Source of the DNA: a virus
IMG/VR virus record: IMGVR_UViG_3300033153_004074
Span: 1-42,148 of that record
Length of the DNA: 42,148 nt
Reading direction: 5' to 3' (one strand)
Positions within the stretch are counted from its first letter, which is position 1. Every line of letters starts with the position of its first letter. The notes beneath the pieces are model-generated. The model was not told the origin of the DNA and did not search any database. It was given only the letters and a program-made list of their open reading frames with translations. A program made the position numbers and the translations under genes. Below are positions 4,318-36,666 of the stretch, one piece after another.

Positions 4318-4321
4318 GACT

Positions 4322-5272
4322 ATGTCTATTAATAGCGATAGAAAATTAAATAATTTCAGTAGTCTTTTAAGTAAAGTTATTGGTAAAAAAAAAGATGTAA
4401 ACAGGCAGGCACAGTCTCAAGAGGATATAGTTAATCTTTTAATGTTATTATTGAATGAAGTTTCTACAGTAGGCAAGATTAACAAAGCGGAGTTTACGGA
4501 GGCTATTAAATCAATCAAGGTTCAATCTAATGTTACTGTGCCCAAGATAGAAATACCATCAATAAATGTACCAGAAGCTAGTGTAAAAGTTGATATACCA
4601 GAGATAAAATTGCCTGATATTCATATACCAGAGATTAAATTACCTAATATTAGCATACCAGAGATAAGTGTGCCCAAGATTCCTAAGATTACCATACCAC
4701 CAATAAAGATACCTAAGATAGATGTGCCTGATGTAATAATGCCTAAAGAAATGGATATTAGAGGCTGGGTACAGCTTCAAGGAGTAGATTTAAATAATCC
4801 TTTACCTGTTCAGATTAGGGACGCTAATGGTAAGCCAATTAATTTTGGAGCTTTAGCTGGTTCTGGTGGTGGCGGAGGAGGCGGAGGTGGTATAAGTAGC
4901 TTGAAAAACAAATCCAGTGAAAAAATTAATCCAGCAACAGAAGAAAAGCAAGATGATATTATAACAGCTATAGAAGCCAATAAGATAACAGCAAAAACAC
5001 CAAATGAATATAATATTACATTAACAGTTGTAGACACAGAGTATTCTCAAGCATTGCCAGTTAACACTAAAAGTGTTCAATTTACAAATAGAAGCTATAA
5101 TGATTTAAGATATTCTTTCACAGCAGGGAGGGTAGCAACACCAACAGCACCGTACCTTACATTAAAAGCAGGAGAAACATATTTTGAAAATAATTTGGAT
5201 TTTGATGGGAAGACTATTTATTTCGCCAATGATGATGCTGGTGATGTAGTAGAGCTTTTAGTAATTACATGA
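4322..5272 (+). CDS. Virion protein with I-P-E-I repeats and Gly linker
   Basis: Of the 316 residues, about 70-145 are a run of short proline-spaced beta repeats (I-P-E-I-K-L-P-D-I-H-I-P-E-I and variants), alternating Val/Ile with Asp, Glu or Lys and resembling AHNAK-type repeats. A linker of nine Gly near residue 185 separates it from a C-terminal beta-sandwich-like domain of about 100 residues. It probably forms an elongated rod carrying a terminal domain. The stop overlaps the next gene's ATG, linking it with the main fibre. The Gly run and the repeats are directly visible; the structural role is inferred. Confidence 0.75.
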   Translation: MSINSDRKLNNFSSLLSKVIGKKKDVNRQAQSQEDIVNLLMLLLNEVSTVGKINKAEFTEAIKSIKVQSNVTVPKIEIPSINVPEASVKVDIPEIKLPDIHIPEIKLPNISIPEISVPKIPKITIPPIKIPKIDVPDVIMPKEMDIRGWVQLQGVDLNNPLPVQIRDANGKPINFGALAGSGGGGGGGGGISSLKNKSSEKINPATEEKQDDIITAIEANKITAKTPNEYNITLTVVDTEYSQALPVNTKSVQFTNRSYNDLRYSFTAGRVATPTAPYLTLKAGETYFENNLDFDGKTIYFANDDAGDVVELLVIT

Positions 5273-7578
5273 TAAAGCAAGGAATAGCAAGAATAGGAAG
5301 TGTAATCCCAGGTGGTACTCCTGGCAGTGTTCTTTTCGTAGATGCTAATAATAGATTAGCAGAAGATAATGCTAACTTGTTTTGGGATGACGCACAAAAT
5401 TTTCTAGGGATAGGGACAATAAATCCAGATAGTAATTTGAATATTGCTAAGGCTGGCGCAGATGCAGAAGCACAAGAAAATATTGATACTTACAGCACAA
5501 ATGGGGCTAGATATACAAGGATTCGTTTAAGAAAGTCAAACACCAATACACTTGAAACATTAATTGAAACAGATGCAGATGATGTTCTTGGTAAAATGTC
5601 ATTTCAAGGAATTGATGCTACCCCAGGTTTCGATCATGGCGCACAAATATATGCAGTTCAAAGTGCTGCTTCTGGAGCTTTTGTGCCGGCTAAGTTATAT
5701 CTTGAAGCATTTGATGCTGATGGTGCTTGGTCTAATCAATTAGTTTTAAGTGATGATGGCAATGTAGGGATAGGCACGGCTACACCAGGGTTTCCTTTAG
5801 AAGTCATTGGGTCAGCGAGTATAGTAGGTTCTTTTTATAGAAATGATACAAGTACACATCCGCAATTAAGGTGTGAACAAGACGGAACGGGGGACGCTTC
5901 ACTAGCCTTTACATTAACGGGTGGTCAAAGCTATTGTATGGGTATTGATAATAGTGCTAGTAATGTTTTCAGAATTTCACCAAGTGCAAATCTATATTTT
6001 GGTACTAATGATTTCGTAATGAACTCAAATTCAAATATTGGGATAAATGTTTTCCCGTCACCTTCATATAGACTTTATGTTCAACAGGCTAAGACTGATG
6101 ATACATCTACTGCAATTAGGAGTGAGGCGTGTCTAAAAATAGAATCATCAATAGCTACTAAATTCGCATACGGAATGTCTTTTGATGGCCGTTCTGATGT
6201 TGATACAGCTATTACAAATGCAGGCACTGTATTTGGTATATTCGGAGCTGCTATACATGACTCATTAGGGACATTATCAGGCGGGACAGATTCAGGTGTT
6301 GTTGGTGCTAGAATTACTTATGGCTCACAAGTTGATGCTGGGTCAATGGATAGTGCGATTGGAATAAGAATTAATGCTTTATTAAACGCTACTATCACAG
6401 ATTCTTATGATATTAAAATTGATGCCCCTACTGGCGAGGTGTCGCCTACGAATGAATGGGTACTATACTCTAACCATGTTGCTCCAAGTAGGCTAATCGA
6501 TGATCTACACATAGACGATGACAATAAATCAATATTATTTGGTGCGGCTCAGGATGCAGGGATTACTTATGATGGTACGGATTTGATATTTGATAGTCAG
6601 TTAGTAGGAAGCGGTGATTTTAGATTTCTTAATGGTAATGTAGGGATACATCACGCTGATCCATGTTACGCTTTAGATATATTTAGTAATACAGGTTCAG
6701 AGGTCAGATTAGCTTCTTTCGGGAATACTTCTACTGGATTTTTTGGGTTTATTAGTTTTGATTATTCAGGTGCTACAGTATTTAGAATCAATTCATTTAA
6801 TACACCGTTTTTACTTGGACAACAAGGAGAGGACTTAATGTCATTCGGAGACCACCACACACAAATCAGGAGAGCTACAGCTGTAATGGATTATGGAAGC
6901 CCTTGGTTACGAATTGGAGTCGGAGGTTTTACAAACAATTCTTACAGGAATATAGGTTTTGGTTATGTGCCAGCTTTTACTGCAGTACCACCTTGTGAGA
7001 TAGGATACCAACAAAAATCAGCAACAGGTTATGGAAAAGGGGATTTTGTTATTGCTGTAAGAGATACTACTGGTCAAACAGATAACGCAGTAGAGAGATA
7101 CAGAGTTAAAAGTAATGGAGATTTGTGGCAGACAGCGGACAATCAATATATTAAGTTCGGTGCATCACAAGACGCAGGAATTACTTATGACGGTGATGAT
7201 ATGGTTTTAAATCCAAGACTTGTAGGGACTGGTCAGGTAGCAGTACTCGGAGCAATACGTTCAGGGCAACTTACAATAACAACAGCAAATGACGGGGCAG
7301 GGATAGATGTATCAGGAGTTAATAGTATAATAATTGATAGTTCAGGCGGAGCAATAGGAATTGAAGATTTGACTGGCGGAGTAGCAGGACAAATAATCCA
7401 CTTCGTTGTCGTGGATAATACTTCGGCAATAACTTTCACAGACCAGTCAGGTAGTAATCAAGAATTGATTTTACATGCAGAAGCAAACTTGGTAATAGCG
7501 GCGAATGACAGAGGTGGAGTTACTTTAATTTGCGATGGAACAAAGTGGTATGGTGCGAGCCACGCTAAACATGTTTAA
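5269..7578 (+). CDS. Tail fibre protein with GIGT-type repeats (769 aa)
   Basis: Repeated motifs of the form G-N-V-G-I-G-T-A-T-P...L-E-V are present near residues 40, 165 and 460; these are widespread in long phage fibres and bacterial adhesins. A second repeat, A-Q-D-A-G-I-T-Y-D-G-T-D (near 425) and S-Q-D-A-G-I-T-Y-D-G-D-D (near 632), marks duplicated domains. The C-terminus ends in a compact beta domain (G-G-V-T-L-I-C-D-G-T-K-W-Y). It starts 4 nt inside the preceding gene. It should be the main receptor-binding fibre. No S74-type autocleavage motif was recognised. Confidence 0.85.
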   Translation: MIKQGIARIGSVIPGGTPGSVLFVDANNRLAEDNANLFWDDAQNFLGIGTINPDSNLNIAKAGADAEAQENIDTYSTNGARYTRIRLRKSNTNTLETLIETDADDVLGKMSFQGIDATPGFDHGAQIYAVQSAASGAFVPAKLYLEAFDADGAWSNQLVLSDDGNVGIGTATPGFPLEVIGSASIVGSFYRNDTSTHPQLRCEQDGTGDASLAFTLTGGQSYCMGIDNSASNVFRISPSANLYFGTNDFVMNSNSNIGINVFPSPSYRLYVQQAKTDDTSTAIRSEACLKIESSIATKFAYGMSFDGRSDVDTAITNAGTVFGIFGAAIHDSLGTLSGGTDSGVVGARITYGSQVDAGSMDSAIGIRINALLNATITDSYDIKIDAPTGEVSPTNEWVLYSNHVAPSRLIDDLHIDDDNKSILFGAAQDAGITYDGTDLIFDSQLVGSGDFRFLNGNVGIHHADPCYALDIFSNTGSEVRLASFGNTSTGFFGFISFDYSGATVFRINSFNTPFLLGQQGEDLMSFGDHHTQIRRATAVMDYGSPWLRIGVGGFTNNSYRNIGFGYVPAFTAVPPCEIGYQQKSATGYGKGDFVIAVRDTTGQTDNAVERYRVKSNGDLWQTADNQYIKFGASQDAGITYDGDDMVLNPRLVGTGQVAVLGAIRSGQLTITTANDGAGIDVSGVNSIIIDSSGGAIGIEDLTGGVAGQIIHFVVVDNTSAITFTDQSGSNQELILHAEANLVIAANDRGGVTLICDGTKWYGASHAKHV

Positions 7579-9644: not shown

Positions 9645-10985
9645 ATGAGTTTATTATCAAATTTTGGTGAACAATTTGCAAGTAAAGTTTTGAAAAAAAC
9701 TTATCAGAAAATAGTTACTAATGGAATTGTCAATAGGAATTATGAAGGTGAAATTAAAAAGCCTGGAGACAGGGTTAATATTTTATCCTTCCTTAACGAT
9801 ATTCTATTAAGTGATTATACTGTAGGTAATGACATGAATTCAGAAACTATCATTGATAATGAGGATACTCTTATAGTTGAAAAGAGGAAGTATTACAACT
9901 TCTCTCTTGACAGACTAGAAGATTTATTCACTTATGCTGGTGATATTCCTGAAAACTTGTTAGATAATTCTTCAAAAATTCTTGAAAAACAAATTGATAC
10001 ATACGTTCTTGACAAATTCGCTTCAGGTGTTAAAGCTGGTTCTTGGTTAGGTGTTAATTTCATTGTTGATGGCGCTGGCCAAACTATGGCATCTATCGTT
10101 ACAACTGCAACTGGTGGTACTGTTAATCTTAGTACTAATGTTGAAGTTGGTGGTACTAATACTGGCCCAGCTCCTGTAGAGAATCCTGGTGATGGTCTTA
10201 CCTATTCTACTACTCTTGAGAATTCAATGCTTTATAAAGGCTTTAGACTTAGGTCTACCGCCGCATTTGTTTCTCCTTGGTATAGAATATCAGGTGTTAC
10301 AGCAACCCATATAGCCACTTTGACTGAATGGGATGAGGCTGTATCTGGTTCTGATTTCGCAGAAGGTGATACATTAAGAGGTCTATTTGGTGGTGATGGT
10401 GTTGACTTCCCTAAGTATGGGGATGGTAACGCTAAGCTTACTACTATGGCTGAACTAGGATGGGAAGTACAAGCCGCTATTGCAACTACTGTAACTGCTG
10501 GCAATGTATTCGATCATACTACTTTATTGGCTGAATTCTTAGACGATAATGAAGTGATGGAAGAAGATAGACATATCCCATGTCCTCCTGCATTTGTTAC
10601 TGCTTTGAAACAAGCACAAGAATTACAACCAGAAGGTGTTGAAGCAATTTATACAGGTACTATCATAAATGGCAAGGTCATGCGTATTAGTGGCTTTGAC
10701 ATTCATAAAGCTGCTGGAGCAAGAATTTCAACTAGAGCCGGACTTTCAACTGCTGTTGGTTTCGGAGCTACTATAGCTCTTACTGCTGGTCCTGTAGGAA
10801 GTCAAATTCCTGCTACACATCCAGGTTGTTGTACTTTTGCTGACAAATGGAGTGAGTCAAGAGTTGTAGATGCTGAAAATCAATTTGCTAAGAAGTATCA
10901 AGGTCTATTCCTATACGGTGCATTAATTCCAAAGGAAAGACGTAAATGGTCTTCTATGTTATTTGCTACTGTAAGTTCACGATAA
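9645..10985 (+). CDS. Major capsid protein (446 aa)
   Basis: It follows the scaffold-type gene and has HK97-fold coat features: an N-terminal helical region, a segment I-V-N-R-N-Y-E-G-E-I and K-P-G-D-R-V-N-I, a P-domain-like helix (K-I-L-E-K-Q-I-D-T-Y-V-L), a long Gly/Thr-rich insertion at about 140-260, and a final hydrophobic strand region. The opening pattern is nearest to P22-like coats, which tolerate large inserted domains. The insertion may be a surface-exposed domain. Family assignment within the HK97 fold is tentative. Confidence 0.85.
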   Translation: MSLLSNFGEQFASKVLKKTYQKIVTNGIVNRNYEGEIKKPGDRVNILSFLNDILLSDYTVGNDMNSETIIDNEDTLIVEKRKYYNFSLDRLEDLFTYAGDIPENLLDNSSKILEKQIDTYVLDKFASGVKAGSWLGVNFIVDGAGQTMASIVTTATGGTVNLSTNVEVGGTNTGPAPVENPGDGLTYSTTLENSMLYKGFRLRSTAAFVSPWYRISGVTATHIATLTEWDEAVSGSDFAEGDTLRGLFGGDGVDFPKYGDGNAKLTTMAELGWEVQAAIATTVTAGNVFDHTTLLAEFLDDNEVMEEDRHIPCPPAFVTALKQAQELQPEGVEAIYTGTIINGKVMRISGFDIHKAAGARISTRAGLSTAVGFGATIALTAGPVGSQIPATHPGCCTFADKWSESRVVDAENQFAKKYQGLFLYGALIPKERRKWSSMLFATVSSR

Positions 10986-15721: not shown

Positions 15722-17983
15722 ATGCCAACAAAAATACAACAAGATAGATGGGCTAAAGCAGTGGCCGCTTCAAAAAAAACAACACCAGAACCACCACCTC
15801 CAATACAATCAACAAGAACAGAAGAGCAAAAAGCTAGATGGGAGACGGCAGTAAAAGCTTCAGAGCCAGAATTTTTAAAGCCTGATTTTCCAAAACAGCC
15901 TGCCTCTGCAACACCTGCAACACCTGCAGAACCAGCTACACCCGAACAACCTGCCGAAGTTCCTACTACACCAGAAGGAGAAGCTTTGGAGCATGTTGTT
16001 AATGAAGAAGCACTACAAGAGAAGCGAGATGAATTAGCTAAATTGGGTATACCCAAAGATGAATGGGATCAATATATCTTACCTCCAGATGAAAACGGAA
16101 GAATATTTTTTAAACAACCTCTTGCTCCAACTTCTGCACCTGCTTTATCAGCCCAAGGGGGACAACATATTCCCAATGAAGAAGCATTGCAACAAAGAAG
16201 AACGGAATTAGGCAAGCTAGGCATCCAGCCTTCAGAATGGGGCAATTACATCACTAAAGGAGCAGATGGTAAGTTATTCTATAATCCACCTACAGAAGCT
16301 CCTGAAGGCGTTTCTGGGCTTCCTGAAGGCACTGGGGAGGCTACCGAAGAAGGAATTAGTGCGGAACAAGATTATATTAATAGAGTAAATAGTTTATTGG
16401 AGGCACATGGGGTGGGAATCCCTGACCTCAACCAAAGTCCTGTTTCAGCTTTTACAGAAACTTATAATCAACTTTATGAAGATATGGGGCTTGATACTAT
16501 TGCTGACGTAATCAAAGAGCTTACTTCCGAAGTAGAGGCACTAGATAATGAGTTAGCAGAAGAAATCCAGACCGTCAATGATAATCCTTGGACATCAGAA
16601 GCACTTAGAACTAAAAAGATCGCTAGTGCTACTCAAAAAATAAACAGTAAGAAAGATAGTGTAGTTAATAGATTGCAATTACAACAATCTCTTTTTAATG
16701 CTGGTCAAGAAGAAGCTCGGTTTGTTGCAGAAATGGGCGTAACCTTATCACATAGAAATGAAGACTTGCAAAGGGATATAATTTTTAAAGCTATGGAGAA
16801 TGTAGAGAAAGAGAAAGAAGCTCAAAGGGAACTGGCCAGAGTTGATCCAAGTAATTTTAAATCAGTACAGGGTGGATTGTATGATATTAAAAATGATGAA
16901 TGGGTAGTGCCTCCAAAGGGGGCTGGCGGTGGCGGTGCAGGCGGTGGTTTTACTTTCCCAACTGTAACACCGCAAACACCAGCACAAAAAGAAGCATCTT
17001 TCCAAGAGTTCCTAGAACAAAAGAGGCAAGAAGTTAGTCAGCAATTTACACCGCAAGAAATAGAATCAAGACGTTTATTTTCACCAGAAAGGATTGAAGG
17101 ATTAAGACAAGAATTTGAATTTCAACAAACAACAGCAGACGATACTCCAATAACAGCAACTGACATTGATGTTTTAACAGCTCAATTGGGGAAACAGGTT
17201 TATGGCACAAGAATAGCCAATGAAGAAAGTGCAAGAATCGAAAGAATAATACAAGGGACTTTAAAAAGTAATCCTGGTATTACGGTTGGAGATTTAAGAG
17301 AAAGTATAATGCGTGATTTATTTGGTTATGATCCACAACAAAATCAAGGACTTGGTGATAGCTTAATACAATCAGTAATGCAGTCTATACCTTTGGCTGA
17401 CTTTGATATGTTCGGTCTTTCCAGATTATTGAATGCTGATAATACAAAAGGAGCTATAACCAAGGTAGAAAATGCTATTATGGGTATAGCTAAAAATGAA
17501 AACCCCGATGATTTTATAGGAGAATCAACTGTAAGAACAGCTAATACAAGGTCTAATGAAATTATTAATTTGTTGGGTGAAGATAGCCCTGTGGGCGTTG
17601 TTTCTGGTACTATGGAAGAATGGTTAGGAAGATTAAAAGGTAAAGAAGCAACTGAATTAAGAAGTAAAATAATTTCACAAGTAGCAGAAATGAGAAACAG
17701 GTTGTCTGGCACAGCAGTTACTGAAAGCGAGGAAAGATTCTTAGAGCCTTTAATTCCTAAAATATCAGATAGACCAGATAATTTTGTGGCTAAATTAAAT
17801 CAATTAAAAGATATGCCTCTTGTTCAATTAAACGGAATTAGAGAAACTTACGGACTTCCTCAAATAAGCGAAAGTCAATTATTGAATAAAAGTTTAAGAA
17901 CAGGTCTATATGGTGGTCAAGTCCAACAGGGGACACAACTAACAGACGAACAAGCTTATCAAGAATATTTAAAAACACAATAA
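15722..17983 (+). CDS. Large ejection/internal virion-type protein (753 aa)
   Basis: The first about 80 residues are Pro/Ala/Glu/Thr-rich with several A-T-P-A-x runs, probably disordered. Two copies of a 40-residue repeat follow (E-A-L-Q-E-K-R-D-E-L-A-K-L-G-I-P near 100 and E-A-L-Q-Q-R-R-T-E-L-G-K-L-G-I-Q near 155). Then come long helical, Gln/Glu-rich stretches, with a Gly-rich hinge near 402. Length, composition and the place before the lysis genes match proteins packaged in the head and ejected with DNA in short-tailed phages. No enzyme motif was recognised. Confidence 0.68.
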   Translation: MPTKIQQDRWAKAVAASKKTTPEPPPPIQSTRTEEQKARWETAVKASEPEFLKPDFPKQPASATPATPAEPATPEQPAEVPTTPEGEALEHVVNEEALQEKRDELAKLGIPKDEWDQYILPPDENGRIFFKQPLAPTSAPALSAQGGQHIPNEEALQQRRTELGKLGIQPSEWGNYITKGADGKLFYNPPTEAPEGVSGLPEGTGEATEEGISAEQDYINRVNSLLEAHGVGIPDLNQSPVSAFTETYNQLYEDMGLDTIADVIKELTSEVEALDNELAEEIQTVNDNPWTSEALRTKKIASATQKINSKKDSVVNRLQLQQSLFNAGQEEARFVAEMGVTLSHRNEDLQRDIIFKAMENVEKEKEAQRELARVDPSNFKSVQGGLYDIKNDEWVVPPKGAGGGGAGGGFTFPTVTPQTPAQKEASFQEFLEQKRQEVSQQFTPQEIESRRLFSPERIEGLRQEFEFQQTTADDTPITATDIDVLTAQLGKQVYGTRIANEESARIERIIQGTLKSNPGITVGDLRESIMRDLFGYDPQQNQGLGDSLIQSVMQSIPLADFDMFGLSRLLNADNTKGAITKVENAIMGIAKNENPDDFIGESTVRTANTRSNEIINLLGEDSPVGVVSGTMEEWLGRLKGKEATELRSKIISQVAEMRNRLSGTAVTESEERFLEPLIPKISDRPDNFVAKLNQLKDMPLVQLNGIRETYGLPQISESQLLNKSLRTGLYGGQVQQGTQLTDEQAYQEYLKTQ

Positions 17984-17984
17984 T

Positions 17985-19733
17985 ATGCCATTATCATTTG
18001 AACAATTTAAAGAGTTAAGATCAAAAGGTTTAACCGTTGACCAAATAAGTAAATTTGAAACTGGTGAGAAACCCACACAACAGCCCAAGAAGAGCTTTCA
18101 AGTTCCTGGTGTTAGTCAGGCAACACGTGGTTTTGCTAATCTTAATATAGGACTTTTAAAAGGTGTGGGTTCTACTTTAAGAGGTGCTTCTAGTTTAGGG
18201 GAAAGAGGGATTAAAAGTGTCGGCAGGCTAGTTACCCCCAAAAGATTTGAAGAAAAATTAGGATTTGTTAAAGAAAAAACTACTTCTGCCGAAAGATTAA
18301 TACCAGAAGAAGTTATAAAACCAAGAGGAGCTTCTCAGAAAATAGGATTTGGGATTGAACAAGTAGGAGAATTTTTTATTCCAGGCTCTATGTCATTAAA
18401 GGCAGGAAAGGTTGCAGGAGCAATCACAAAGGGTGGTAAACTCGCAAAAGGTGCTACTAAACTAGGTGCTATAGGAGCAACAGAGGCAGTATTAGGCACA
18501 GGACAATCAGCTTTGCAAAGAGGTAAATTAGGAAAAGAAGAATTGGGTGTAGGAGCTATTTCTTTAGTTGCCCCAACTGCCTTAGCAGGTGCGGGGAAAA
18601 TAGCGAAAGCTATTATGCCGAAACCTGTTAAAGATGTTATAAGACAAGCCGTGGATAAAGCTATAAGACCTTCTGTCAAATCATTTAGAAAAATGGGTTT
18701 TTATGATAAGGCAGAGGAGGCTTTTGATGTAATGAGGCAGAACAAGGTAGTCTTTGAGGGTGAAGAAGTTGTCAGAAACCCAGGGAATATAACAGAAATG
18801 ATTGAAACAATGAAAGAATCTAAGATAAATGTTTATAATGCTTATGATACTATTTCAAGACGTGCAGGAGAGGCTGGCGCAAAGTTCAGTCCAAAATCAA
18901 TAATGGCTGATTTATCTAACTGGATAAAGAAAAAAGGTTTTTCTAGTGAAATAAAGATTTATGCTAAAAATAGATTGAGAGGTCTAGCAAATTTAGATGG
19001 TGCAACACCAGGACAAGTTCAAGACAGGATAGAAGAATTAAATGCAACTTTTAATCCTTTGAGTATTACTATGGAATCAAAAATAGATGGCTCTATATCT
19101 AGAAAGTTAAGAGAAAGCTTAGATAATTTGATACTTAAAACTGGAGGTCAAGAATATCAAGGTTTTAGGAATCAGTATTCAGCTTTAAAAACAATAGAAG
19201 ATGACCTGATGAAACGTGGAGCATCGGAAGCAAGAAAATCACAAATAGGATTATCGGGATATACTGATATATTTACTGGAGCAGATTTATTGGGTGGTTT
19301 AATGACAAGTAATCCTGCTTTATTAGCTAGGGGTGTCGCAGGTAGAGGAATAAAAGAATTTCAAAAATGGTTGACTAATCCTAACAGATTAATACAAAAA
19401 GCTTTTGATGCTTTAGAAAAATCACCTTTACCTATATCACCATTTAGAACTTCAAGACAACCATTATTGCCTAAGGGAAAAAGTCTTACTAAGGAAATTA
19501 AAACACCTATTCATTTACCGAAAGAAACTTTAAGCACAATAGAAGCCAGAGAAATACAGGAATTAATGAGGCAGGGTAAAAAGAAAGAATTATTAGAAAG
19601 ATTAAAAGGCTTGACTAAAGAAGAAATACAAAAACTCTTACCAGAAGGGACTGGCATAACTGGAGCGCCCATACCAACAAGAGCACCTGCGAGTAGTTTT
19701 CCTATAAAAGAGATAGATAAAACTAGAAGATAA
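17985..19733 (+). CDS. Second ejection-type protein with amphipathic core (582 aa)
   Basis: It starts 1 nt after the preceding stop. The N-terminus (S-F-E-Q-F-K-E-L-R-S-K-G-L-T) resembles short helical motifs common in phage internal proteins. Residues about 40-210 are unusually rich in Gly, Ala and Lys with amphipathic, potentially membrane-inserting helices (G-A-I-T-K-G-G-K-L-A-K-G-A-T-K-L-G-A). The rest is helical and ends in a Pro/Thr-rich basic tail. A role in making a channel for DNA during entry is inferred from composition and order. Confidence 0.65.
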   Translation: MPLSFEQFKELRSKGLTVDQISKFETGEKPTQQPKKSFQVPGVSQATRGFANLNIGLLKGVGSTLRGASSLGERGIKSVGRLVTPKRFEEKLGFVKEKTTSAERLIPEEVIKPRGASQKIGFGIEQVGEFFIPGSMSLKAGKVAGAITKGGKLAKGATKLGAIGATEAVLGTGQSALQRGKLGKEELGVGAISLVAPTALAGAGKIAKAIMPKPVKDVIRQAVDKAIRPSVKSFRKMGFYDKAEEAFDVMRQNKVVFEGEEVVRNPGNITEMIETMKESKINVYNAYDTISRRAGEAGAKFSPKSIMADLSNWIKKKGFSSEIKIYAKNRLRGLANLDGATPGQVQDRIEELNATFNPLSITMESKIDGSISRKLRESLDNLILKTGGQEYQGFRNQYSALKTIEDDLMKRGASEARKSQIGLSGYTDIFTGADLLGGLMTSNPALLARGVAGRGIKEFQKWLTNPNRLIQKAFDALEKSPLPISPFRTSRQPLLPKGKSLTKEIKTPIHLPKETLSTIEAREIQELMRQGKKKELLERLKGLTKEEIQKLLPEGTGITGAPIPTRAPASSFPIKEIDKTRR

Positions 19734-20148: not shown

Positions 20149-20751
20149 ATGCTTAAAGCAAGTAATCCAATTTATGAAGTTCAACACATAACAGTTCCTT
20201 TTGGTGTCTGGTATAAATGGGGCAAACACAAAGGGCTTGATTTGAGAACTAAGTGTGATGAATACCCACAGGGCATAGGTACACCATACCACGCCATAGC
20301 AGACGGAGAATGGCTTGAGGTGGGTAAAAGCAAGGCTTTAGGTGTATATGTCAGATTAAAGCATAGATACGCAGGGAGGGAGTATATAAGCGTCTATGGC
20401 CATTGTGAGGCAAGCACCTACAAGAAAGGATGGAGAGAAGTAAGGAGAGGTGATGTGATCGGATATTCTGGAAGAACAGGAATAATGACAGCTCCACACT
20501 TACATTTAGAGTTATACGAGAATGGTAAATTGATTGATCCCATGAAAGCTATTAAGGCTTATCAGGATTTTATAGAAAGAGTAGAAGATTGTAGATTTAT
20601 AGATGTTGATAATAACGGTGAATTTTGGTTAATAGATGGAGGCAAGAGGTATCATGCTAAAGACGGTGATGATTGTTTGAGATTAATGAGGCAATTAAGT
20701 CAAGGTATTAATTCAGAAGATTTAAGTATAATTCCTATAGGGGAACTTTAA
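20149..20751 (+). CDS. M23 (LytM-like) peptidoglycan endopeptidase, endolysin
   Basis: The 200-aa product has the complete zinc-site pattern of M23 metallopeptidases: H-x3-D in H-K-G-L-D (about 27-31), Y-G-H near 83 and H-L-H-L-E-L near 116-121, with a G-D-V-I-G-Y-S-G-R-T-G before the H-x-H. These enzymes cut peptide cross-bridges of peptidoglycan. A C-terminal extension of about 65 residues (F-W-L-I-D-G-G-K-R-Y-H) may bind the cell wall. It has no signal peptide, so release would need the holin-like partner. It is the last gene of the virion/lysis block. Confidence 0.92.
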   Translation: MLKASNPIYEVQHITVPFGVWYKWGKHKGLDLRTKCDEYPQGIGTPYHAIADGEWLEVGKSKALGVYVRLKHRYAGREYISVYGHCEASTYKKGWREVRRGDVIGYSGRTGIMTAPHLHLELYENGKLIDPMKAIKAYQDFIERVEDCRFIDVDNNGEFWLIDGGKRYHAKDGDDCLRLMRQLSQGINSEDLSIIPIGEL

Positions 20752-20754: not shown

Positions 20755-20783
20755 TTGACAAAATAAGATATATAATATATACT
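20755..20783 (+). promoter_or_regulatory. Sigma70-type promoter of the RNA array
   Basis: The -35 box is TTGACA (20755-20760), the -10 box TATACT (20778-20783), with a 17-bp spacer. It lies just after the lysin stop codon and before more than 650 nt without a credible gene, so it should drive the structured RNAs. Confidence 0.88.
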
Positions 20784-20812
20784 AAAAGAGAATAGTTTAT
20801 AATAATTAAAAA

Positions 20813-20915
20813 CCCAACGGTACACTAAAGATTTTTTGAACTATACTGTTTCTGCGGGAACAGTGTTCCCCCAATTACCGTTGGGTGAGACAGTATAGTT
20901 TAGAGAATCTTTTTT
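20813..20915 (+). ncRNA. Promoter-driven RNA: long hairpin plus loop-to-5'-end pairing
   Basis: A 26-pair helix (20827-20852 with 20887-20912, a few G-U) is followed by a T-run. Its loop holds a GGGAAC/GTTCCC hairpin (20856-20870) and TACCGTTGGG (20876-20885), which is perfectly complementary to CCCAACGGTA (20813-20822) just 5' of the long helix. The two helices interleave, so they form a knot after partial opening or are alternative states. The RNA at 23121 has the same plan. Confidence 0.72.
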
Positions 20916-21034
20916 GTTTATTAATGGCGAGGGAAGTGCAACGGCGAAGTTAGCACTGAAAAATTAACTATGAATAAGCATTAAAGGCATGCTGTTAATT
21001 TAGGAGGCCTGTACCCTCTTCGCCATTAGTAAAT
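20916..21034 (+). ncRNA. Structured RNA module 1 (shared closing helix)
   Basis: The closing helix pairs 20916-20929 (begins GTTTATTAATGG) with 21021-21034 (ends CCATTAGTAAAT) in 14 continuous pairs. It continues past a 3-nt bulge with AGGG/CCCT. Inside are AGTGC/GCACT (loop contains GGCGAAG), a longer hairpin AATTAAC...GTTAATT and an alternative GAGG-CCTGTAC-CCTC hairpin. No reading frame. The GUUUAUU/AGYAAAU part recurs in modules 2-4. Confidence 0.72.
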
Positions 21035-21068
21035 AATAAATTTATAAATATCTTTGAGAATCTTTTTT

Positions 21069-21219
21069 GTTTATTATATGCTGGAGAAAACAAGAATAAG
21101 TTGATTACTTTTTCAAGTGCGAATGTCCTCTAATTGGTAAGAGAAATGTGAAAGCTTAATCAGTGAGTAGTAAAAAATATTGGTTCAAGTCCAATCTTTG
21201 CCTCCAGCATAAAGTAAAT
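21069..21219 (+). ncRNA. Structured RNA module 2 with tRNA-like D and T arms
   Basis: The closing helix is 21069-21086/21202-21219 (TATGCTGGAG/CTCCAGCATA plus the shared GTTTATT/AGTAAAT, one A-A mismatch). The interior holds a D-arm-like hairpin CTCT-AATTGGTA-AGAG and a perfect T-arm-like hairpin ATTGG-TTCAAGT-CCAAT, followed by CTTTGCC-T-CCA. The region between the arms is about 35 nt and does not fold as an anticodon arm. It could be a decayed tRNA or a tRNA mimic. Confidence 0.7.
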
Positions 21220-21223
21220 AATT

Positions 21224-21449
21224 GTTTATTAAAAGCTAGAGTGGCGGAATAGGTAGGCGCCAGAGGCATAACTAATCACAAGTGCATTTGATGTTGTGCC
21301 GTTATCTAAAGAATGCACATGCAAGGTGACTATACGAGTACGACTAAGACCTGCCTCAATGTCCCAAGACAGAGAGTAGGGCAATCTATTAAGTTAGACC
21401 GATCTTGGGCTACGTCTCGGCAAATCCTTGCCTCTAGCTTTTAGCAAAT
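21224..21449 (+). ncRNA. Structured RNA module 3 with tRNA-Leu-like 5' part
   Basis: The closing helix is 21224-21241/21432-21449 (AAAAGCTAGAG/CTCTAGCTTTT plus the shared GTTTATT/AGCAAAT with one A-C mismatch). Right after it comes GTGGCGGAATAGGTAGGCGC, very close to the D-arm region of tRNA-Leu. The large remainder contains CCCAAGA/TCTTGGG and a final hairpin GGCAA-ATCC-TTGCC where a T-arm would be expected. It ends 18 nt before the next small gene. Confidence 0.7.
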
Positions 21450-21467
21450 AATAAATTTATAAATAAT

Positions 21468-21563
21468 ATGTTTTATCCTTGGATTACAACAATAGAAACA
21501 ACAGATAACACTGATGATATACCAGTATTAGCTTGGGATGAAACAGAAACCCAGCCAAAATAA
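21468..21563 (+). CDS. Small acidic protein (31 aa)
   Basis: Opens after the leader AAATTTATAAATAATATG that follows module 3. The product is acidic and Thr-rich (T-T-I-E-T-T-D-N-T-D-D-I-P-V-L). Its stop lies inside a 31-nt leader that recurs at 22692. Function unknown; short but well placed. Confidence 0.5.
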   Translation: MFYPWITTIETTDNTDDIPVLAWDETETQPK

Positions 21564-21588
21564 GGTCTTTACTAATTAAGTAAATATG
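21558..21588 (+). repeat. Repeated 31-nt translation leader, copy 1
   Basis: The segment containing AAGGTCTTTACTAATTAAG and ending in the start codon of the gene at 21586 is identical to 22692-22722. In both copies it contains the TAA stop of the frame before. No Shine-Dalgarno is present. Confidence 0.8.
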
Positions 21589-21888
21589 AAAATAATAAAA
21601 TGGAGCAAACATCCTGAAAAACAATTAAAATTCGGGACTAAACTAATAAATAAAAATGTTGATATTGATGACGAAGAAGATATTTACTTAACTATAGTTT
21701 TAGCTGTCTTGGAAGCAAAAGATCACAACTCTTGGGACAAAAGACTGCATGGAGACAAAGAAACGCCCACACTAGACGATTATAGAGTTATAGTGTCTTA
21801 TTGTAACCATGCACATCAAGATTCAAAAAGCTTAAAAGAAATAGTTAATAATTATAATATATTAGAATATGAAAAAACAAATACATAA
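21586..21888 (+). CDS. Hypothetical protein (100 aa), phage replication-region type
   Basis: An acidic central part (V-D-I-D-D-E-E-D-I-Y) is followed by a helical region and K-R-L-H-G-D-K-E-T-P-T-L-D-D-Y. Family not recognised. It is preceded by the repeated 31-nt leader, and its stop lies near the next start. Codon use is very AT-rich, like the rest of this region. Confidence 0.65.
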   Translation: MKIIKWSKHPEKQLKFGTKLINKNVDIDDEEDIYLTIVLAVLEAKDHNSWDKRLHGDKETPTLDDYRVIVSYCNHAHQDSKSLKEIVNNYNILEYEKTNT

Positions 21889-21892
21889 TATT

Positions 21893-22318
21893 ATGTTCAA
21901 AAAAGAAGATAATAAAAAAGTCAAAGAGCTTTTTAAAAAACTTAAATCAATTTCTTGCAACTACAAAGATAATGACTGCCCAAAAGCTGACTTCTATTTA
22001 CATGATATTATAAAATTGATACTTGAAGAAATAAAGATGAATATTCCAAAATTAATCAACAATGAAGAATTATATAAAATAGTGATAACTGAAAATTTAC
22101 CTGAGAACAAATGGACTATAGAATATAATTCTTTTAATAGTAAAGAAGCAGTTGAAATACCAGAAAAACTAGCTAAAGCAATTCTTAATATAAAAAAAGA
22201 AAACAAAGAAAGTTTAATAAAAGAATTTTATAAATTAGCTAGTAGAAGTTGGAATCCTGACAATATTAATGAATTAGATAAATTGTTTAAATTACAATAT
22301 AAAAATATCAAGTTCTAA
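21893..22318 (+). CDS. Hypothetical helical protein (141 aa)
   Basis: Two starts are possible: ATG 21869, overlapping the previous gene by 20 nt, or ATG 21893, four bases after its stop with the leader taatattATG used elsewhere here; I chose the latter. The product is Lys/Glu/Asn-rich and helical, with two Cys near residues 18 and 24 (S-C-N-Y-K-D-N-D-C-P). The end resembles a small helical bundle. No family recognised. Confidence 0.62.
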   Translation: MFKKEDNKKVKELFKKLKSISCNYKDNDCPKADFYLHDIIKLILEEIKMNIPKLINNEELYKIVITENLPENKWTIEYNSFNSKEAVEIPEKLAKAILNIKKENKESLIKEFYKLASRSWNPDNINELDKLFKLQYKNIKF

Positions 22319-22339
22319 ATAAAGAAAACTAATTAATTT

Positions 22340-22612
22340 ATGATAAATTTAAACAAAAAATTTGATAACGAATTTCCAGATAGTAGAAATTTATTTAGGA
22401 ATGACCCCCATGACAGCAGAAGAAAAGCTGTTAAAAATTTTTATAATAGAGAAATAAAAATATTTTTTAAAAAAATAAATAATATAATAGATAAAAATAT
22501 AGGCAACGAAATAGCCATTAACTACAAAGATAAAAGTAGATTTGGAATATATGTAACTAGAACAGACATCAGTATACTTAAAAAAGAAATAAAAAAATTC
22601 GTCATAGCATAA
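22340..22612 (+). CDS. Hypothetical basic protein (90 aa)
   Basis: A basic, Asn/Lys-rich product with N-D-P-H-D-S-R-R-K-A-V near residue 22, then a probable coiled helix and a beta strand (F-G-I-Y-V-T-R-T-D). The leader is aattaattt-ATG. No known domain is apparent; nucleic-acid binding would fit the charge but is unsupported. Confidence 0.58.
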   Translation: MINLNKKFDNEFPDSRNLFRNDPHDSRRKAVKNFYNREIKIFFKKINNIIDKNIGNEIAINYKDKSRFGIYVTRTDISILKKEIKKFVIA

Positions 22613-22643
22613 TAATTACTTATATTCTTTTGTTTTGTATTAT

Positions 22644-22697
22644 ATGGACAATGTCATTAATTGTTTTTATTATAATAAAACTATGATTATTAAATAA
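22644..22697 (+). CDS. Possible 17-aa peptide
   Basis: A 17-codon frame (N-C-F-Y-Y-N-K-T-M) whose stop falls at the same place in the repeated 31-nt leader as the stop of the gene at 21468. It may be a leader peptide or only part of the duplicated segment. Bases 22613-22643 hold nothing else recognisable. Confidence 0.25.
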   Translation: MDNVINCFYYNKTMIIK

Positions 22698-22722
22698 GGT
22701 CTTTACTAATTAAGTAAATATG
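22692..22722 (+). repeat. Repeated 31-nt translation leader, copy 2
   Basis: Identical to 21558-21588, including the in-frame TAA of the preceding frame and the ATG of the following gene. Confidence 0.8.
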
Positions 22723-22797
22723 TTCAAAGAATTTAATTTTTTTCATCTTGTGGCTGTTTTTATTATCTGTATGACTTTAATGGCTATATTTGCATAA
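22720..22797 (+). CDS. Membrane micropeptide (25 aa)
   Basis: After M-F-K-E-F-N-F-F-H the peptide is a continuous hydrophobic helix (L-V-A-V-F-I-I-C-M-T-L-M-A-I-F-A). Its start codon is the end of the exactly repeated 31-nt leader, which also serves the gene at 21586; this is good evidence that it is translated. Confidence 0.55.
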   Translation: MFKEFNFFHLVAVFIICMTLMAIFA

Positions 22798-22840
22798 TCT
22801 TTTTTATATATAGTGTTTAATTTAAACATTGTATATAAAG

Positions 22841-22927
22841 TTATTTATTAACAGGGTGGGGTCGTGGAAATAATTAGTACTTGAATACCACGTTGGGTCT
22901 TGACGGTCTCCCACTGTTAGCAAATAA
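22841..22927 (+). ncRNA. Structured RNA module 4 (shared closing helix)
   Basis: The closing helix is 22841-22854/22914-22927 (TTATTTATTAACAG with CTGTTAGCAAATAA, one A-C mismatch), then TGGG/CCCA past a 2-nt bulge. Inside is CGTGG/CCACG (22863-22867 with its partner near 22888). Compared with the other modules, the closing G-U pair is replaced by A-U, a compensatory-type change. It lies 16 nt before the start at 22944. A TTG-started frame through the module is rejected. Confidence 0.68.
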
Positions 22928-22943
22928 CAGTAAAATTAAAAAT

Positions 22944-23078
22944 ATGGATACAATAAGAATAATGAATGTAGCAATAGGATCAGAAGTGCATGGATATTGG
23001 GAAACAAAAAAAGACGCAAGAGAATGGATCAATAGCCAAGATAGTCCTAGCAGTTATATGATAATAGAAGAATATTAA
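22944..23078 (+). CDS. Small hypothetical protein (44 aa)
   Basis: It begins at ATG 22944 after module 4. The product reads M-D-T-I-R-I-M-N-V-A-I-G-S-E-V-H-G-Y-W and then K-D-A-R-E-W-I-N-S-Q, a short alpha/beta pattern as in small phage DUF-type proteins. It ends just before a promoter. No function assigned. Confidence 0.58.
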   Translation: MDTIRIMNVAIGSEVHGYWETKKDAREWINSQDSPSSYMIIEEY

Positions 23079-23085: not shown

Positions 23086-23114
23086 TTGACATTAAATTTT
23101 AGATATGCTATTAT
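23086..23114 (+). promoter_or_regulatory. Sigma70-type promoter of second looped RNA
   Basis: -35 TTGACA (23086-23091), 17-bp spacer, -10 TATTAT (23109-23114). The predicted start is near 23121, at the beginning of the folded RNA. Confidence 0.85.
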
Positions 23115-23120
23115 TTAAGT

Positions 23121-23230
23121 ACAACCTAATAACTTGACCGACTACAGAAACCCTATTATTGGGCTTTTGCACAGGCAATGACTTTAGTCGGTCATCTTTG
23201 CAAGAGCAAACGTCCAGTAATAGGTTTTTT
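23121..23230 (+). ncRNA. Promoter-driven RNA: hairpin plus loop-to-5'-end pairing (second copy of plan)
   Basis: A long bipartite helix (23147-23162 with 23214-23228, one bulge, then GCTTTTGC/GCAAGAGC at 23163-23170/23200-23207) is followed by six T and G. Its loop holds TAGTCGGTCA (23185-23194), complementary over 10 nt to TGACCGACTA (23135-23144) just upstream of the helix. The interleaved order, 10-nt arm length and TTTTTTGTTTAT end match the RNA at 20813, while the sequences differ. Confidence 0.74.
23225..23230 (+). terminator. T-run of probable intrinsic terminator
   Basis: TTTTTT follows directly on the 3' arm of the long helix of the RNA at 23121. Termination here would release an RNA of about 110 nt; read-through would extend into the folded leader of the gene at 23450. 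Confidence 0.6.
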
Positions 23231-23249
23231 GTTTATAAGACAAATTTAA

Positions 23250-23799: not shown

Positions 23800-23882
23800 G
23801 GGAGAGTCGTCTAACGGTAGGATAGGCAACTATAGTATAAAACAAGCAAGCCAGATGAGGTTCGAATCCTCCTCTTCCACCA
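23800..23882 (+). tRNA. tRNA-Gln/Glu-like element with abnormal anticodon region
   Basis: The 7-bp acceptor GGGAGAG/CTCTTCC (one G-U) is followed by A and an encoded CCA. The D-arm TCGTCTAACGGTAGGATA is close to that of tRNA-Gln or Glu. The T-arm is GAGG-TTCGAAT-CCTC, with a 4-bp stem. Between D and T arms are 33 nt, about 10 more than normal, with only GGC/GCC pairing, so no standard anticodon loop can be drawn. It may be a degenerate tRNA, a tRNA with an insertion, or a tRNA mimic. Confidence 0.6.
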
Positions 23883-25822: not shown

Positions 25823-25847
25823 GTTCTCTAAGCTTCTATCATATAGG

Positions 25848-25912
25848 TTATCTAGTTGTGAGGGGGCGGGAATCTTCTTTAATGGAGGAGGAACAATCCC
25901 CTGACTGGATAA
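25848..25912 (+). promoter_or_regulatory. Folded leader before the lytic transglycosylase gene
   Basis: TTATCTAGTT (25848-25857) pairs with GACTGGATAA (25903-25912), then AGGGG (25861-25865) with CCCCT (25898-25902) past a 3-nt bulge. An inner hairpin is TCTTC/GAGGA (25873-25877/25885-25889). It lies between the HTH-like gene and the gene at 25931 and could be a riboregulator; no known class was recognised. Confidence 0.6.
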
Positions 25913-25930
25913 ATAAAAAAATAAAAACGT

Positions 25931-32972: not shown

Positions 32973-33695
32973 ATGATAAATCCAAAAACAATTAGAAAAA
33001 GTATCTTAATCAATTCAATGAAGGCTGGGGCGTGTCATATCGGATCCGCATTATCATGTGTTGAAATCTTATTAGCTATTGATGAAGTGATGAAGAAAGA
33101 TGATGTGTTTCTATTCTCAAAGGCTTCTGGAGTTTCGGCTTATTATTCTTTATTAGCTGAAAAGGGAGTATTCCCAAGGTCAAAGGTGGCTGAATATTTA
33201 AAGAAATATCCACTTGCTAGTAAAGAAGTCCCAGGAGTGATACATAGTGTTGGCAGTATCGGACATGGACTTAACGTCTCTGTTGGCATGGCTTTTGCAG
33301 ATAGAAGTAGGAAAGTTTATTGTCTTATGTCAGATGGAGAGTTAAATGAGGGGAGTACATGGGAGGCTTTATTGTTTGCAGGTCATCATAAATTAAACAA
33401 TCTTATAGTGGTCGTAGATTATAATTCTTTACAGGCTTGCGGAGCGACTAAGGATATTTTAATCCTTGAGCCAATAGTAAATAAATTCAAAGCTTTTGGA
33501 TTATGGTCAAGAAAAGTGAACGGACATAGCATGGAAAGCCTTAAAAGTGCGTTGACAAAGGAAAGTAAAAGTGCTAAGATTATAGTAGCGATTACAACTA
33601 AAGGCAAAGGTTGTGATTTCATGGAGAATGATTACAAAAGCCACTATCTTAATTTAGACAATAAACTCTTACAACGAGCATTGAAACAAATATGA
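32973..33695 (+). CDS. Transketolase, N-terminal (PP-domain) subunit (240 aa)
   Basis: It covers the TPP pyrophosphate-binding domain only: G-A-C-H-I-G-S-A-L-S, then S-V-G-S-I-G-H-G-L-N-V-S-V-G-M-A, the metal/TPP motif M-S-D-G-E-L-N-E-G (near 120; usual G-D-G) and V-V-D-Y-N near 150. Split transketolases of this type are known in many bacteria and in sugar-biosynthesis clusters. Together with the next gene it should transfer two-carbon ketol units. It begins the glycan cassette. Confidence 0.87.
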   Translation: MINPKTIRKSILINSMKAGACHIGSALSCVEILLAIDEVMKKDDVFLFSKASGVSAYYSLLAEKGVFPRSKVAEYLKKYPLASKEVPGVIHSVGSIGHGLNVSVGMAFADRSRKVYCLMSDGELNEGSTWEALLFAGHHKLNNLIVVVDYNSLQACGATKDILILEPIVNKFKAFGLWSRKVNGHSMESLKSALTKESKSAKIIVAITTKGKGCDFMENDYKSHYLNLDNKLLQRALKQI

Positions 33696-34159
33696 GCGAT
33701 CTAAGACAATCATTTTTTAATATATTACTAGAAAAAGCAAAGAAAGATAAATCCATTCATCTTTTAGTAGGTGATTTGGGTTTCAGTTTCATGGAGAAAT
33801 TTCAGCAAGAACTCCCAGAACAATTTACAAACTGTGGTATCGCAGAACAAAACATGATAGGGCTTGCTTCTGGTATGGCCATAGCAGGCAAAAGACCTTA
33901 CTGTTACAGTGGTCTTATTTTTTTACTAATGCGTGCGTATGAGCAAATCCGTGTAGACGTAGCTTATAACAATACTAATGTTAAATTAATAGGAACAGGA
34001 GCATCTCCCTTCCTCGGATTTACTCATAATTTGCAGGGGACGGAAAATGAAGAAGACTTACTTAAAAACTTACCTAATATTCAAAGATTTTATCCAAAAG
34101 ATGACTTTGAATTAGAATCGGCCATGATGATAGAAGGGCCGAGTTATGTGCGTCTCTAA
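33692..34159 (+). CDS. Transketolase, pyrimidine-binding subunit, shortened (155 aa)
   Basis: ATGA overlap with the N-terminal subunit. F-T-N-C-G-I-A-E-Q-N-M-I-G-L-A-S-G-M carries the conserved Glu that activates TPP, followed by G-K-R-P-Y. The usual C-terminal transketolase_C domain (about 120-150 aa) is missing; the frame ends at S-Y-V-R-L, just where that domain would begin. Either the minimal PP plus Pyr pair is enough, or the pair has lost normal activity. Confidence 0.82.
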   Translation: MSDLRQSFFNILLEKAKKDKSIHLLVGDLGFSFMEKFQQELPEQFTNCGIAEQNMIGLASGMAIAGKRPYCYSGLIFLLMRAYEQIRVDVAYNNTNVKLIGTGASPFLGFTHNLQGTENEEDLLKNLPNIQRFYPKDDFELESAMMIEGPSYVRL

Positions 34160-34605: not shown

Positions 34606-34766
34606 AATATTTAATAGGAGCAATAATAAATAAAGTACCCAAAGACGGAGAGTTTGAAAAGTTTATAGAAAAGAAATTTGGGAAAACAAAGTATCTAGTT
34701 TTTGAGTTGAGCGAAAAAGAATTAGCGAAAAAGATTTTAAATATTAAAAATCTGCTTAAATTATGA
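34602..34766 (+). CDS. Small hypothetical protein (54 aa)
   Basis: ATGA overlaps with both neighbours. Basic and helical (F-E-K-F-I-E-K-K-F-G, then L-S-E-K-E-L-A-K-K-I-L). Too short for assignment; position between coupled genes supports it. Confidence 0.58.
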   Translation: MKYLIGAIINKVPKDGEFEKFIEKKFGKTKYLVFELSEKELAKKILNIKNLLKL

Positions 34767-35605
34767 AGAACAAACGTATAGTCTGTGTTGGCGGGGCGGG
34801 AAGTATCGGATCAGAACTTTGTCGCCAACTAGCAAAAGACAATAAAATATTTGTACTAGACCAAGATGAATCAGCAACATTTGATATTTGCGAAGAACTA
34901 AAGGATTATTGGGTCAAGCCAAGAGTAGGAGATATAAGAAACAAAGAAACTATAAAGGATTTGTTTGAAGACTTTAAGCCACAAATAGTTATCAATGCAG
35001 GAGCTTATAAACACGTTCCTCTTTCTCACATATACCCAAGAGATTATGTAGATATTAATATTATAGGAAATCTTAATCTAGTAGAAGAAGCTAAGAATTG
35101 GGAATGTTTGGATAAATTCATATATATCTCTACTGATAAGGCCGTAAACTCTAACAACATAATGGGCTGCACAAAACGTGCGTCTGAAATTATAGTAAAA
35201 TCTCAAGGCAAAGGGTTCTGTGCAGTTAGGTTTGGAAATGTAATTGGTAGTAGGGGCAGTTTATATACAATATGGAAAAGGCAAATTAAGGAAGGAAAGC
35301 CATTGACTTTGACAGATAAACGCATGGAAAGATACATGATGACTATAAAAGAAGCTTGCGAGCTTGTAATCAAGGCAGGAGATGACAGCGAAGGAGGAGA
35401 GATATATATACTTGACATGGGGGAAAAAAGGAAAATTGTTGAATTGATGGACGAATTTGTTATACAAAATTATGGTTTTAAGAATTATCCTCATGGGTAT
35501 AAAATAATAGGTATAAGAGAAGGAGAAACTTTATCAGAAGAATTAATGTTCTCCGAGGAGAAAGAAAAAGCAATTAAAAAAGGAAAGTTTTGGATAATAA
35601 AATAA
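34763..35605 (+). CDS. UDP-N-acetylhexosamine 4,6-dehydratase-type SDR (280 aa)
   Basis: N-terminal Rossmann G-G-A-G-S-I-G-S-E-L (8-17), then D-I-R-N-K-E near 57, A-G-A-Y-K-H-V-P, and the active-site S-T-D-K-A-V...M-G-C-T-K-R, typical of the PseB/FlaA1/CapD group of inverting or retaining dehydratases. The length fits the short soluble form. The product, a 4-keto-6-deoxy sugar nucleotide, is the natural substrate of the aminotransferase that follows. Confidence 0.86.
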   Translation: MKNKRIVCVGGAGSIGSELCRQLAKDNKIFVLDQDESATFDICEELKDYWVKPRVGDIRNKETIKDLFEDFKPQIVINAGAYKHVPLSHIYPRDYVDINIIGNLNLVEEAKNWECLDKFIYISTDKAVNSNNIMGCTKRASEIIVKSQGKGFCAVRFGNVIGSRGSLYTIWKRQIKEGKPLTLTDKRMERYMMTIKEACELVIKAGDDSEGGEIYILDMGEKRKIVELMDEFVIQNYGFKNYPHGYKIIGIREGETLSEELMFSEEKEKAIKKGKFWIIK

Positions 35606-35616
35606 ATATAAATATT

Positions 35617-36666
35617 ATGCGAGTAAAATTTTTTAACCCAGGAAAAGAGTATAAGCAACTTAAAAAAGAGCTATTACCTAAAATTGATGATGTTCTTAGC
35701 AGGGGCGATTTAATCCTCCGAAAAGACGTTGAGATTTTTGAAAATAAATTAGCCAAATATATCGGTGTCAAATATGCTTGTGGAGTTAACTCATGCACAG
35801 ATGCTCTTTATTTGTCATTAAAGTATTTAGGAATAGGTAAAGGCGATCAAGTATTAGTACCTTCAAGGACTTTTGTTGCTTCGGTGCAAGTTATTGTTCA
35901 GTTAGGAGCAGAGCCAGTTTATTATGATTTGAATGGAAATTCAGAAGGATGGAAAAATATTAAGGCTATTATACCAGTGCATATTGAAGGGGAAATAGAC
36001 AGTAACATGGATACAATTTTAAATACTCTTAAAAGGTTTAAAGTACCTGTTATTGAAGATTCAGCACAAGCTCTTGGTGCTACATACAAAGGCAAAATGG
36101 CAGGTAGTATCGGTTTGTCTGGTTGTTTTTCTTTCTATCCAGCTAAGATATTAGGGGCTTGTGGTGATGCAGGGGCTTTAGTTACAAATGACAAGAAGCT
36201 TTATGAGTGGGCTAAAGAGGCAAGGAATCATTTTAAAAATACAAACAAAGATTGGGGTATTAATTCAAGATTGGATAATCTTCAAGCTTGCATATTGAAT
36301 GTAAAGTTTAAATATCATAAAAGAAATCTAGCAAGAAGAAAGAAGATTGCCATGATGTATGATAAGGGATTAAGAGATTTAAAGATAACCTTACCAGAAC
36401 CATCAAAAGACAGAGTGTGGCAAGATTATATAATAAGGCTTGATAGTAAAAGACAAAGAGATAGGCTTTTTGATTATTTAAAGGAAAAAGGAATTGAAAC
36501 AATGAAAAACAATTACCCTTTTCCAGTTAAAAAGTTACCTTTGGCACAAGCCTATGAAGATGAGACTTTAAGATTGCCATGTAATCCAATGTTAAATGAT
36601 TCTGAAATTAATTATATTATTAAAAAAGTAAAGGAGGCAAAAAATGCCTTGGAAATTAGAGTATGA
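35617..36666 (+). CDS. DegT/DnrJ/EryC1 sugar aminotransferase (349 aa)
   Basis: ATG 35617 chosen over an upstream TTG. The fold-type I pattern includes G-V-N-S-C-T-D-A-L-Y-L-S-L, V-P-S-R-T-F-V-A-S, I-E-D-S-A-Q-A-L-G-A and F-S-F-Y-P-A-K-I-L-G with the PLP lysine near 177, then G-D-A-G-A-L. It would aminate the 4-keto sugar made by the preceding dehydratase. The next gene overlaps its end by 23 nt. Confidence 0.9.
   Translation: MRVKFFNPGKEYKQLKKELLPKIDDVLSRGDLILRKDVEIFENKLAKYIGVKYACGVNSCTDALYLSLKYLGIGKGDQVLVPSRTFVASVQVIVQLGAEPVYYDLNGNSEGWKNIKAIIPVHIEGEIDSNMDTILNTLKRFKVPVIEDSAQALGATYKGKMAGSIGLSGCFSFYPAKILGACGDAGALVTNDKKLYEWAKEARNHFKNTNKDWGINSRLDNLQACILNVKFKYHKRNLARRKKIAMMYDKGLRDLKITLPEPSKDRVWQDYIIRLDSKRQRDRLFDYLKEKGIETMKNNYPFPVKKLPLAQAYEDETLRLPCNPMLNDSEINYIIKKVKEAKNALEIRV

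Follow-up and report, generated by a model that had tools for sequence, protein, structure and literature searches.

A tRNA-like frame around variable RNA domains in a tailed-phage genome and its relatives

Four closed RNA modules behind an endolysin gene

The stretch of DNA analysed here (the window, 42,148 nucleotides) is a 42-kb tailed-phage contig that encodes a capsid protein at 9645–10985, an M23 endolysin at 20149–20751 and a terminase at its right end, and directly behind the endolysin gene it holds 834 bp without a long open reading frame (ORF). An earlier note described three structured RNA modules in this gap and a fourth downstream, and took them for one family sharing a closing helix; the question is what these RNAs are, and which of their parts is the conserved one. 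The features of the module region lie on the plus strand, in the order promoter, H-type pseudoknot, modules 1, 2 and 3 (M1–M3), with module 4 (M4) 1.4 kb further on. The promoter (20755–20783), found in a pattern list and read in the sequence, is of sigma-70 type with TTGACA at 20755, a 17-bp spacer and TATACT at 20778, and the leader (20812–20917) is a pseudoknot of the helices 20812–20822/20876–20886 and 20827–20852/20887–20912 that ends in T6 (helix listing; fold z-score −8.4). M1–M3 had been read as standing behind a perfect-type promoter, which is indeed of consensus sequence, but the pseudoknot with its T6 end comes in between. The same design, a consensus promoter and then an H-type pseudoknot ending in T6, recurs at 23086–23232 of the window, and comparable promoter-plus-pseudoknot elements occur in G004 (16784–16909) and G041 (35617–35740). 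Two further noncoding stretches with long closing helices lie at 944–1119, right behind a consensus promoter, and at 25823–25930.

All four modules prove to be closed RNA structures where they had been placed. Fold z-scores against dinucleotide shuffles are −4.9 for M1 (20910–21040), −5.9 for M2 (21067–21221), −3.9 for M3 (21221–21452) and −2.5 for M4 (22840–22928), with closing helices of 24, 20, 21 and 26 columns, respectively. A search for TTTAT...GYAAAT ends in which no more than one of 12 positions is unpaired gave four matches, exactly the four modules, while 1000 shuffles of two noncoding regions gave a mean of 0.036 handle-plus-helix matches and never reached four. Across the 12-column shared helix 94% of cells are paired, compared with 33–53% when the partners are slid, and three pairs have changed on both sides; these shuffles and paired changes support the selection on RNA structure that had been proposed. 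The pairs had been described mostly correctly, except that the fifth pair of the shared helix is an A–C mismatch in M3 and M4 (where Y = C), that M2 has an A–A mismatch, and that the inner helix of M4 is bulged. The three tandem modules had also been described as containing no gene; small ORFs absent from that description lie just 3′ of M3 (31 codons, 21468–21563) and of M4 (44 codons, 22944–23078). In addition, two identical 31-nt repeats (AAATAAGGTCTTTACTAATTAAGTAAATATG, at 21558–21588 and 22692–22722) form a hairpin, TTTACT-AATT-AAGTAAA, directly before a start codon and resemble an empty version of the shared handle.

A syntenic phage family was recovered from IMG/VR via terminase and capsid searches. 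Single proteins from the ORFs adjoining the modules retrieved almost no relatives, the 25-nt 3′ handle repeat gave no match as a query, and BLASTN of the module region against phages gave none either, because the conserved blocks are too short. Several relatives (G004, G045, G049) carry structured RNAs behind or slightly beyond the endolysin gene. One module of G004 has a near-identical handle (GTTTAT...AAGTAAAT), and the outer AU-rich helix is local to the window phage apart from a similar one in this relative. T-arm enrichment in the relatives' noncoding DNA is modest (seven matches, two of which are true tRNAs). Terminases related to that of the window phage were found in MAG bins of many phyla, bins in which they are probably misplaced. 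Also conserved across the phage family are split transketolase genes together with nucleotide-sugar enzymes (window 32973–34159 and 34763–36666), which probably serve surface sugar synthesis.

M3 and a wider tRNA-frame family

The homologue that places M3 is a 240-nt module in G050. Its closing helix, of 23 columns, shows no sequence relation to the closing helix of M3, yet just inside the two helices the RNAs are identical (left, GUGGCGGAAUA...CGC; right, AAAUCCUURCC). These two blocks, searched in IMG/VR as one spaced pattern, returned 30 stretches, and in nearly every one a paired helix flanks the blocks immediately on the outside; a second pattern added 42 more. About 70 matches in IMG/VR, cultured phages and Enterococcus faecalis plasmids share the family's constant plan. 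It runs from an acceptor helix through UG and a tRNA-Leu-like D-arm (GGCGGAAUAGGUAGACGC) to a central domain, which is variable, partly pseudoknotted and stands at the place of the anticodon arm, and on to a T-arm, GYAAGG-UGCAAAU-CCUURC, with its 3′ strand directly adjoining the acceptor helix. M3 follows this plan throughout: its acceptor or closing helix pairs 21221–21241 with 21432–21452 over 21 columns (helix listing), and inside it lies the D-arm UGGCGGAAUAGGUAGGCGC (21242–21260; pattern and model alignment), which matches the tRNA-Leu-type family D-arm UGGCGGAAUAGGUAGACGC at 18 of 19 positions. In the model alignment, the T-stem 5′ strand GCAAGG and the first T-loop bases UG (21321–21328) are followed by an insert (ACUAUACGAG...CUCG), after which the remaining T-loop CAAAU and the T-stem 3′ strand CCUUGC (21421–21431) stand beside the acceptor 3′ strand. 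A T-loop opened after UG by an insert with this beginning and end also marks four other members (L288, L293, L302, L304), which form a subfamily with M3; other members have an insert in the D-loop instead.

With the window left out, a sequence model of seven other members found M3 at 57.6 bits (E = 1.1e-16), as well as a Kocuria contig (E = 2.7e-9) and Listeria phage B025 (E = 2.3e-5), and exact blocks of 22–24 nt are common to M3 and four unrelated contigs. When 33 members are aligned over their core, 95% of cells are paired, against 27–44% with the partners slid, and all nine acceptor pairs have changed on both sides. Judged from its sequence, M3 is thus a member of a large, widespread and apparently unnamed phage RNA family that is absent from Rfam. 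The earlier view that no described RNA family fits the modules agrees with this: Rfam gave no match for the window or the modules, and the tRNA model RF00005 gave no score for M1, M3 and M4 and only 22.4 bits (E = 0.33; gathering threshold, 29) for M2. Neither ARAGORN at default settings nor Rfam at gathering thresholds calls the tRNA frames of the family, and openly accessible papers yielded no description of such an RNA, which seems undescribed.

The proposal of a common handle carrying different payloads is supported, but the handle that is conserved and widespread is the tRNA-like frame seen in M3; the outer UUUAUU/AGYAAAU helix is not what chiefly unites these RNAs. Nor does the evidence make one family of four. 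M3 alone is a proven member of the wider family. M2, with a D-arm-like element (21128–21143) and a canonical T-arm (21179–21195), is borderline at 9.8 bits (E = 0.063) against the family model and may be a divergent member, whereas M1, which has a D-arm-like hairpin (GUGCAACGGCGAAGUUAGCAC), and M4 give no signal from the model and are unplaced. The family D-arm inside the acceptor helix was absent from M1, M2 and M4. A shared outer helix can arise by tandem duplication, as in another metagenomic phage (L351) two tandem copies with different interiors have a common outer helix, formed by GAGTTCTCAATGGAGGGG and the strand paired with it, which is the arrangement noted earlier in the window.

The family departs from canonical tRNA in several respects: the T-stem has six base pairs instead of five, U55 is replaced by G, and CCA is not encoded. 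The 7-bp acceptor is followed by A in only 36 of 69 members (52%), which lends no support to leucine charging of these RNAs, itself a possibility. A separate tRNA-like RNA of the window (23800–23882), recognized in the sequence and by a T-arm match, has a D-arm, a T-arm, an encoded CCA and a G3–U70 pair around an enlarged, unpaired anticodon region in place of a normal anticodon arm; ARAGORN at default does not call it, and G045 (the contig of L184) has a comparable RNA at 19144–19283, which also ends with CCA encoded and contains a folded insert. Alanine charging, to which the G3–U70 of these two RNAs points, was rejected as a family rule, with G–U or U–G at 3–70 in only three of 69 members.

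Variable interiors and recurrent neighbours

The interior, from D-arm to T-arm inclusive, measures about 75 to 270 nt, with a shortened form of 46 nt in phiFL2A. It changes quickly: the copies of PSA, B025 and LP-101 are nearly identical at both ends, and their middles do not align. Most members lack an anticodon arm, although UAUGG-AUGAGUC-CUAUA in the PSA copy could plausibly form one. Four related interiors have a 7-bp helix whose strands vary in step (UCUAUGA/UCAUAGA, UUCACAA/UUGUGAA, UUCACAC/GUGUGAA and UCUGUGA/UCAUAGA) and which crosses a second helix that does likewise, the third sequence requiring a realignment of about three columns. As paired changes are kept in both crossing helices, the interior itself is under structural selection, at least in those four. 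One member (L286, minus strand; RNA at 3838–4026 of the reverse complement) has a complete tRNA-Lys(UUU) nested in its central domain.

Among cultured phages, the RNA is carried by Listeria phages PSA, B025, B054, LP-101, LP-114 and vB_LmoS_188, and by Bacillus phi3T, Brochothrix BtpYZU01, Geobacillus PK3.5, Paenibacillus Pd_22F and Enterococcus 21C1, 113 and EFP01. No inspected copy in these phages is annotated as RNA, and in B025 and B054 a small predicted ORF overlaps it; the unannotated gaps concerned lie at 36.6–36.8 kb in PSA and 50.2–50.35 kb in phi3T. In the Listeria phages it lies between Rfam rli62 or rliG and mcrA, and on the E. faecalis pheromone plasmid pKUB3006-2 (L371, 2248–2529) a member lies between prgA (surface exclusion) and prgB (aggregation substance), just after a terminator. 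Other copies keep company with tRNAs: a 126-kb phage (L340) has two inside its tRNA array, one copy (L309) adjoins a true tRNA-Leu, and in Enterococcus phage 21C1 (L369, 153–631) a family member lies a few bases at most behind a true phage tmRNA gene, with a tRNA-Ser nearby. Terminases are a further recurrent neighbour. Ten large proteins encoded 0.7–3 kb downstream, picked for looking like terminases, all proved to be terminase large subunits, of several Pfam types, and a conservative search of all loci found about 20 with a same-strand terminase within 3 kb downstream and none at short range upstream.

A proposed scaffold for other RNAs, and the alternatives

The anatomy of these RNAs suggests that the tRNA shape serves phages as a vehicle for RNAs with other functions. 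On balance, we favour the view that M3 and the related RNAs act as natural tRNA scaffolds, processed in the manner of pre-tRNAs, that carry functional, non-decoding RNA. The ends of such an RNA would adopt the structure of the tRNA-Leu acceptor stem, D-arm and T-arm; host RNase P would cut the 5′ end, and RNase Z or exonucleases the 3′ end, from a longer transcript; the tRNA-like elbow would protect the product; and the variable, folded and sometimes pseudoknotted domain that replaces the anticodon arm would be the working part, swapped between phages and acting in trans. This proposal of excision and protection rests on the anatomy of the frame together with established knowledge of tRNA processing. 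In the window phage, such RNAs would be made in tandem behind a promoter, M1, M2 and M4 perhaps working as M3 does, and each would be clamped by an AU-rich extension of its acceptor helix; duplication probably produced this extension incidentally, and it would also tighten the ends. tRNA enzymes may not accept the frame, since the T-stem has six pairs and U55 is G, and the 21-column acceptor helix of M3 could hinder RNase P. The missing CCA and the presence of A after the acceptor in only about half of the members also count against a scaffold, as does the spacing of 15 nt between the end of M3 and the ORF behind it, which would suit a cis element.

The main rival, which we regard as rather unlikely, starts from such positions: RNase P/Z cleavage would split a long transcript, or the RNA would be a 5′ leader controlling the next gene, and the interior would be largely filler. 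Copies do stand at the borders of gene blocks, upstream of terminases, between prgA and prgB and before the small ORFs of the window, and the prgA–prgB untranslated region of plasmid pCF10 is reported to take part in prgB control (PMC8265641), the family copy here being that on pKUB3006-2. However, the distance to the next ORF varies widely, the mcrA RNA intervenes in Listeria phages, some copies sit inside tRNA arrays, and compensatory pairs are kept in the interior, as the four related ones show. We give a slim chance to a decoy, in which host enzymes that attack tRNAs, whether nucleases or modifying enzymes, would be titrated by the tRNA-like frame; the tRNA frame itself, its occurrence on mobile elements (with no family match in 5,426 Escherichia coli genomes) and the fast-changing interior would suit this, but anticodon nucleases have no target in the majority of members, which lack an anticodon loop.

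A slimmer chance still attaches to tRNA-Leu genes with unusual introns or to decayed tRNA pseudogenes, an idea encouraged by the tRNA-Leu-like frame and by the tRNA-sized PSA copy with its plausible GAG anticodon arm. Against it, shared splice borders are absent, an anticodon arm cannot be rebuilt in most members, no intron family matches, and acceptor and T-stem stay paired through many changes, unlike those of pseudogenes. The intron-containing tRNA reading was rejected. Within the window, ARAGORN called no tRNA at default settings with or without introns, and its tmRNA search was also negative. That AT-rich DNA produced the pattern by chance or composition deserves almost no credence even though AU-rich handles are common in the window genome; shuffles, covariation and independent relatives speak against it, and for M3 it is already refuted.

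Beyond the scaffold reading of M3 and its relatives, we tentatively raise the possibility of a carrier platform shared by phages and pheromone plasmids of many bacteria, in which an anticodon-less tRNA-Leu frame would express swappable regulatory or packaging RNAs, the copies upstream of terminases acting in DNA packaging or a late-gene switch. Their place ahead of terminase genes that belong to several protein families allows a part in late expression or packaging to be tested. The RNAs appear to be unannotated in well-studied sequenced phages (PSA, phi3T, B025, EFP01), where they constitute a fast-evolving RNA component of the genome and would be a naturally occurring counterpart of the tRNA scaffold that biotechnology employs.

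The family has known precedents, as phage T4 species 1 RNA and tmRNA share elements of its design. The nearest is species 1 (rnaC), which, with species 2 (rnaD), is a stable non-decoding RNA of 119–139 nt in a phage tRNA cluster; rnaC has a T-arm at its 3′ end (CCGGG-UUCGAAU-CCCGG), but both T4 RNAs lack the UGGCGGAAUAGGUAGACGC D-arm and the UGCAAAU T-loop, species 1 having been compared by eye and fold only, which showed no sequence homology. The family offers a direct approach to what these long-unexplained stable RNAs of T4 do. Structured, phage-borne RNAs of unknown function also include the ornate GOLLD and ROOL RNAs (PMC12286853). These are far larger; the family has a tRNA frame and no Rfam match to them. 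As in tmRNA, tRNA-like ends enclose a long pseudoknotted domain in place of the anticodon arm, but the family RNAs are much shorter, have no match to the Rfam tmRNA model (RF00023) and contain no identified tag frame. Bacterial Y RNAs (YrlA) likewise combine a long closing helix with a tRNA-like part; the family has no Rfam match to YrlA, and a Ro60/TROVE gene was absent from the 13 phage records searched. With tRNA-Leu itself the family has in common the D-arm sequence and the acceptor–D–T layout, the differences being those of anticodon arm, T-stem, position 55 and CCA given above. A G at T-loop position 55 occurs also in normal tRNAs of a related phage (L028), several of which, in an array of 21 tRNA genes at 2906–5470, have it as the tRNA-frame family does.
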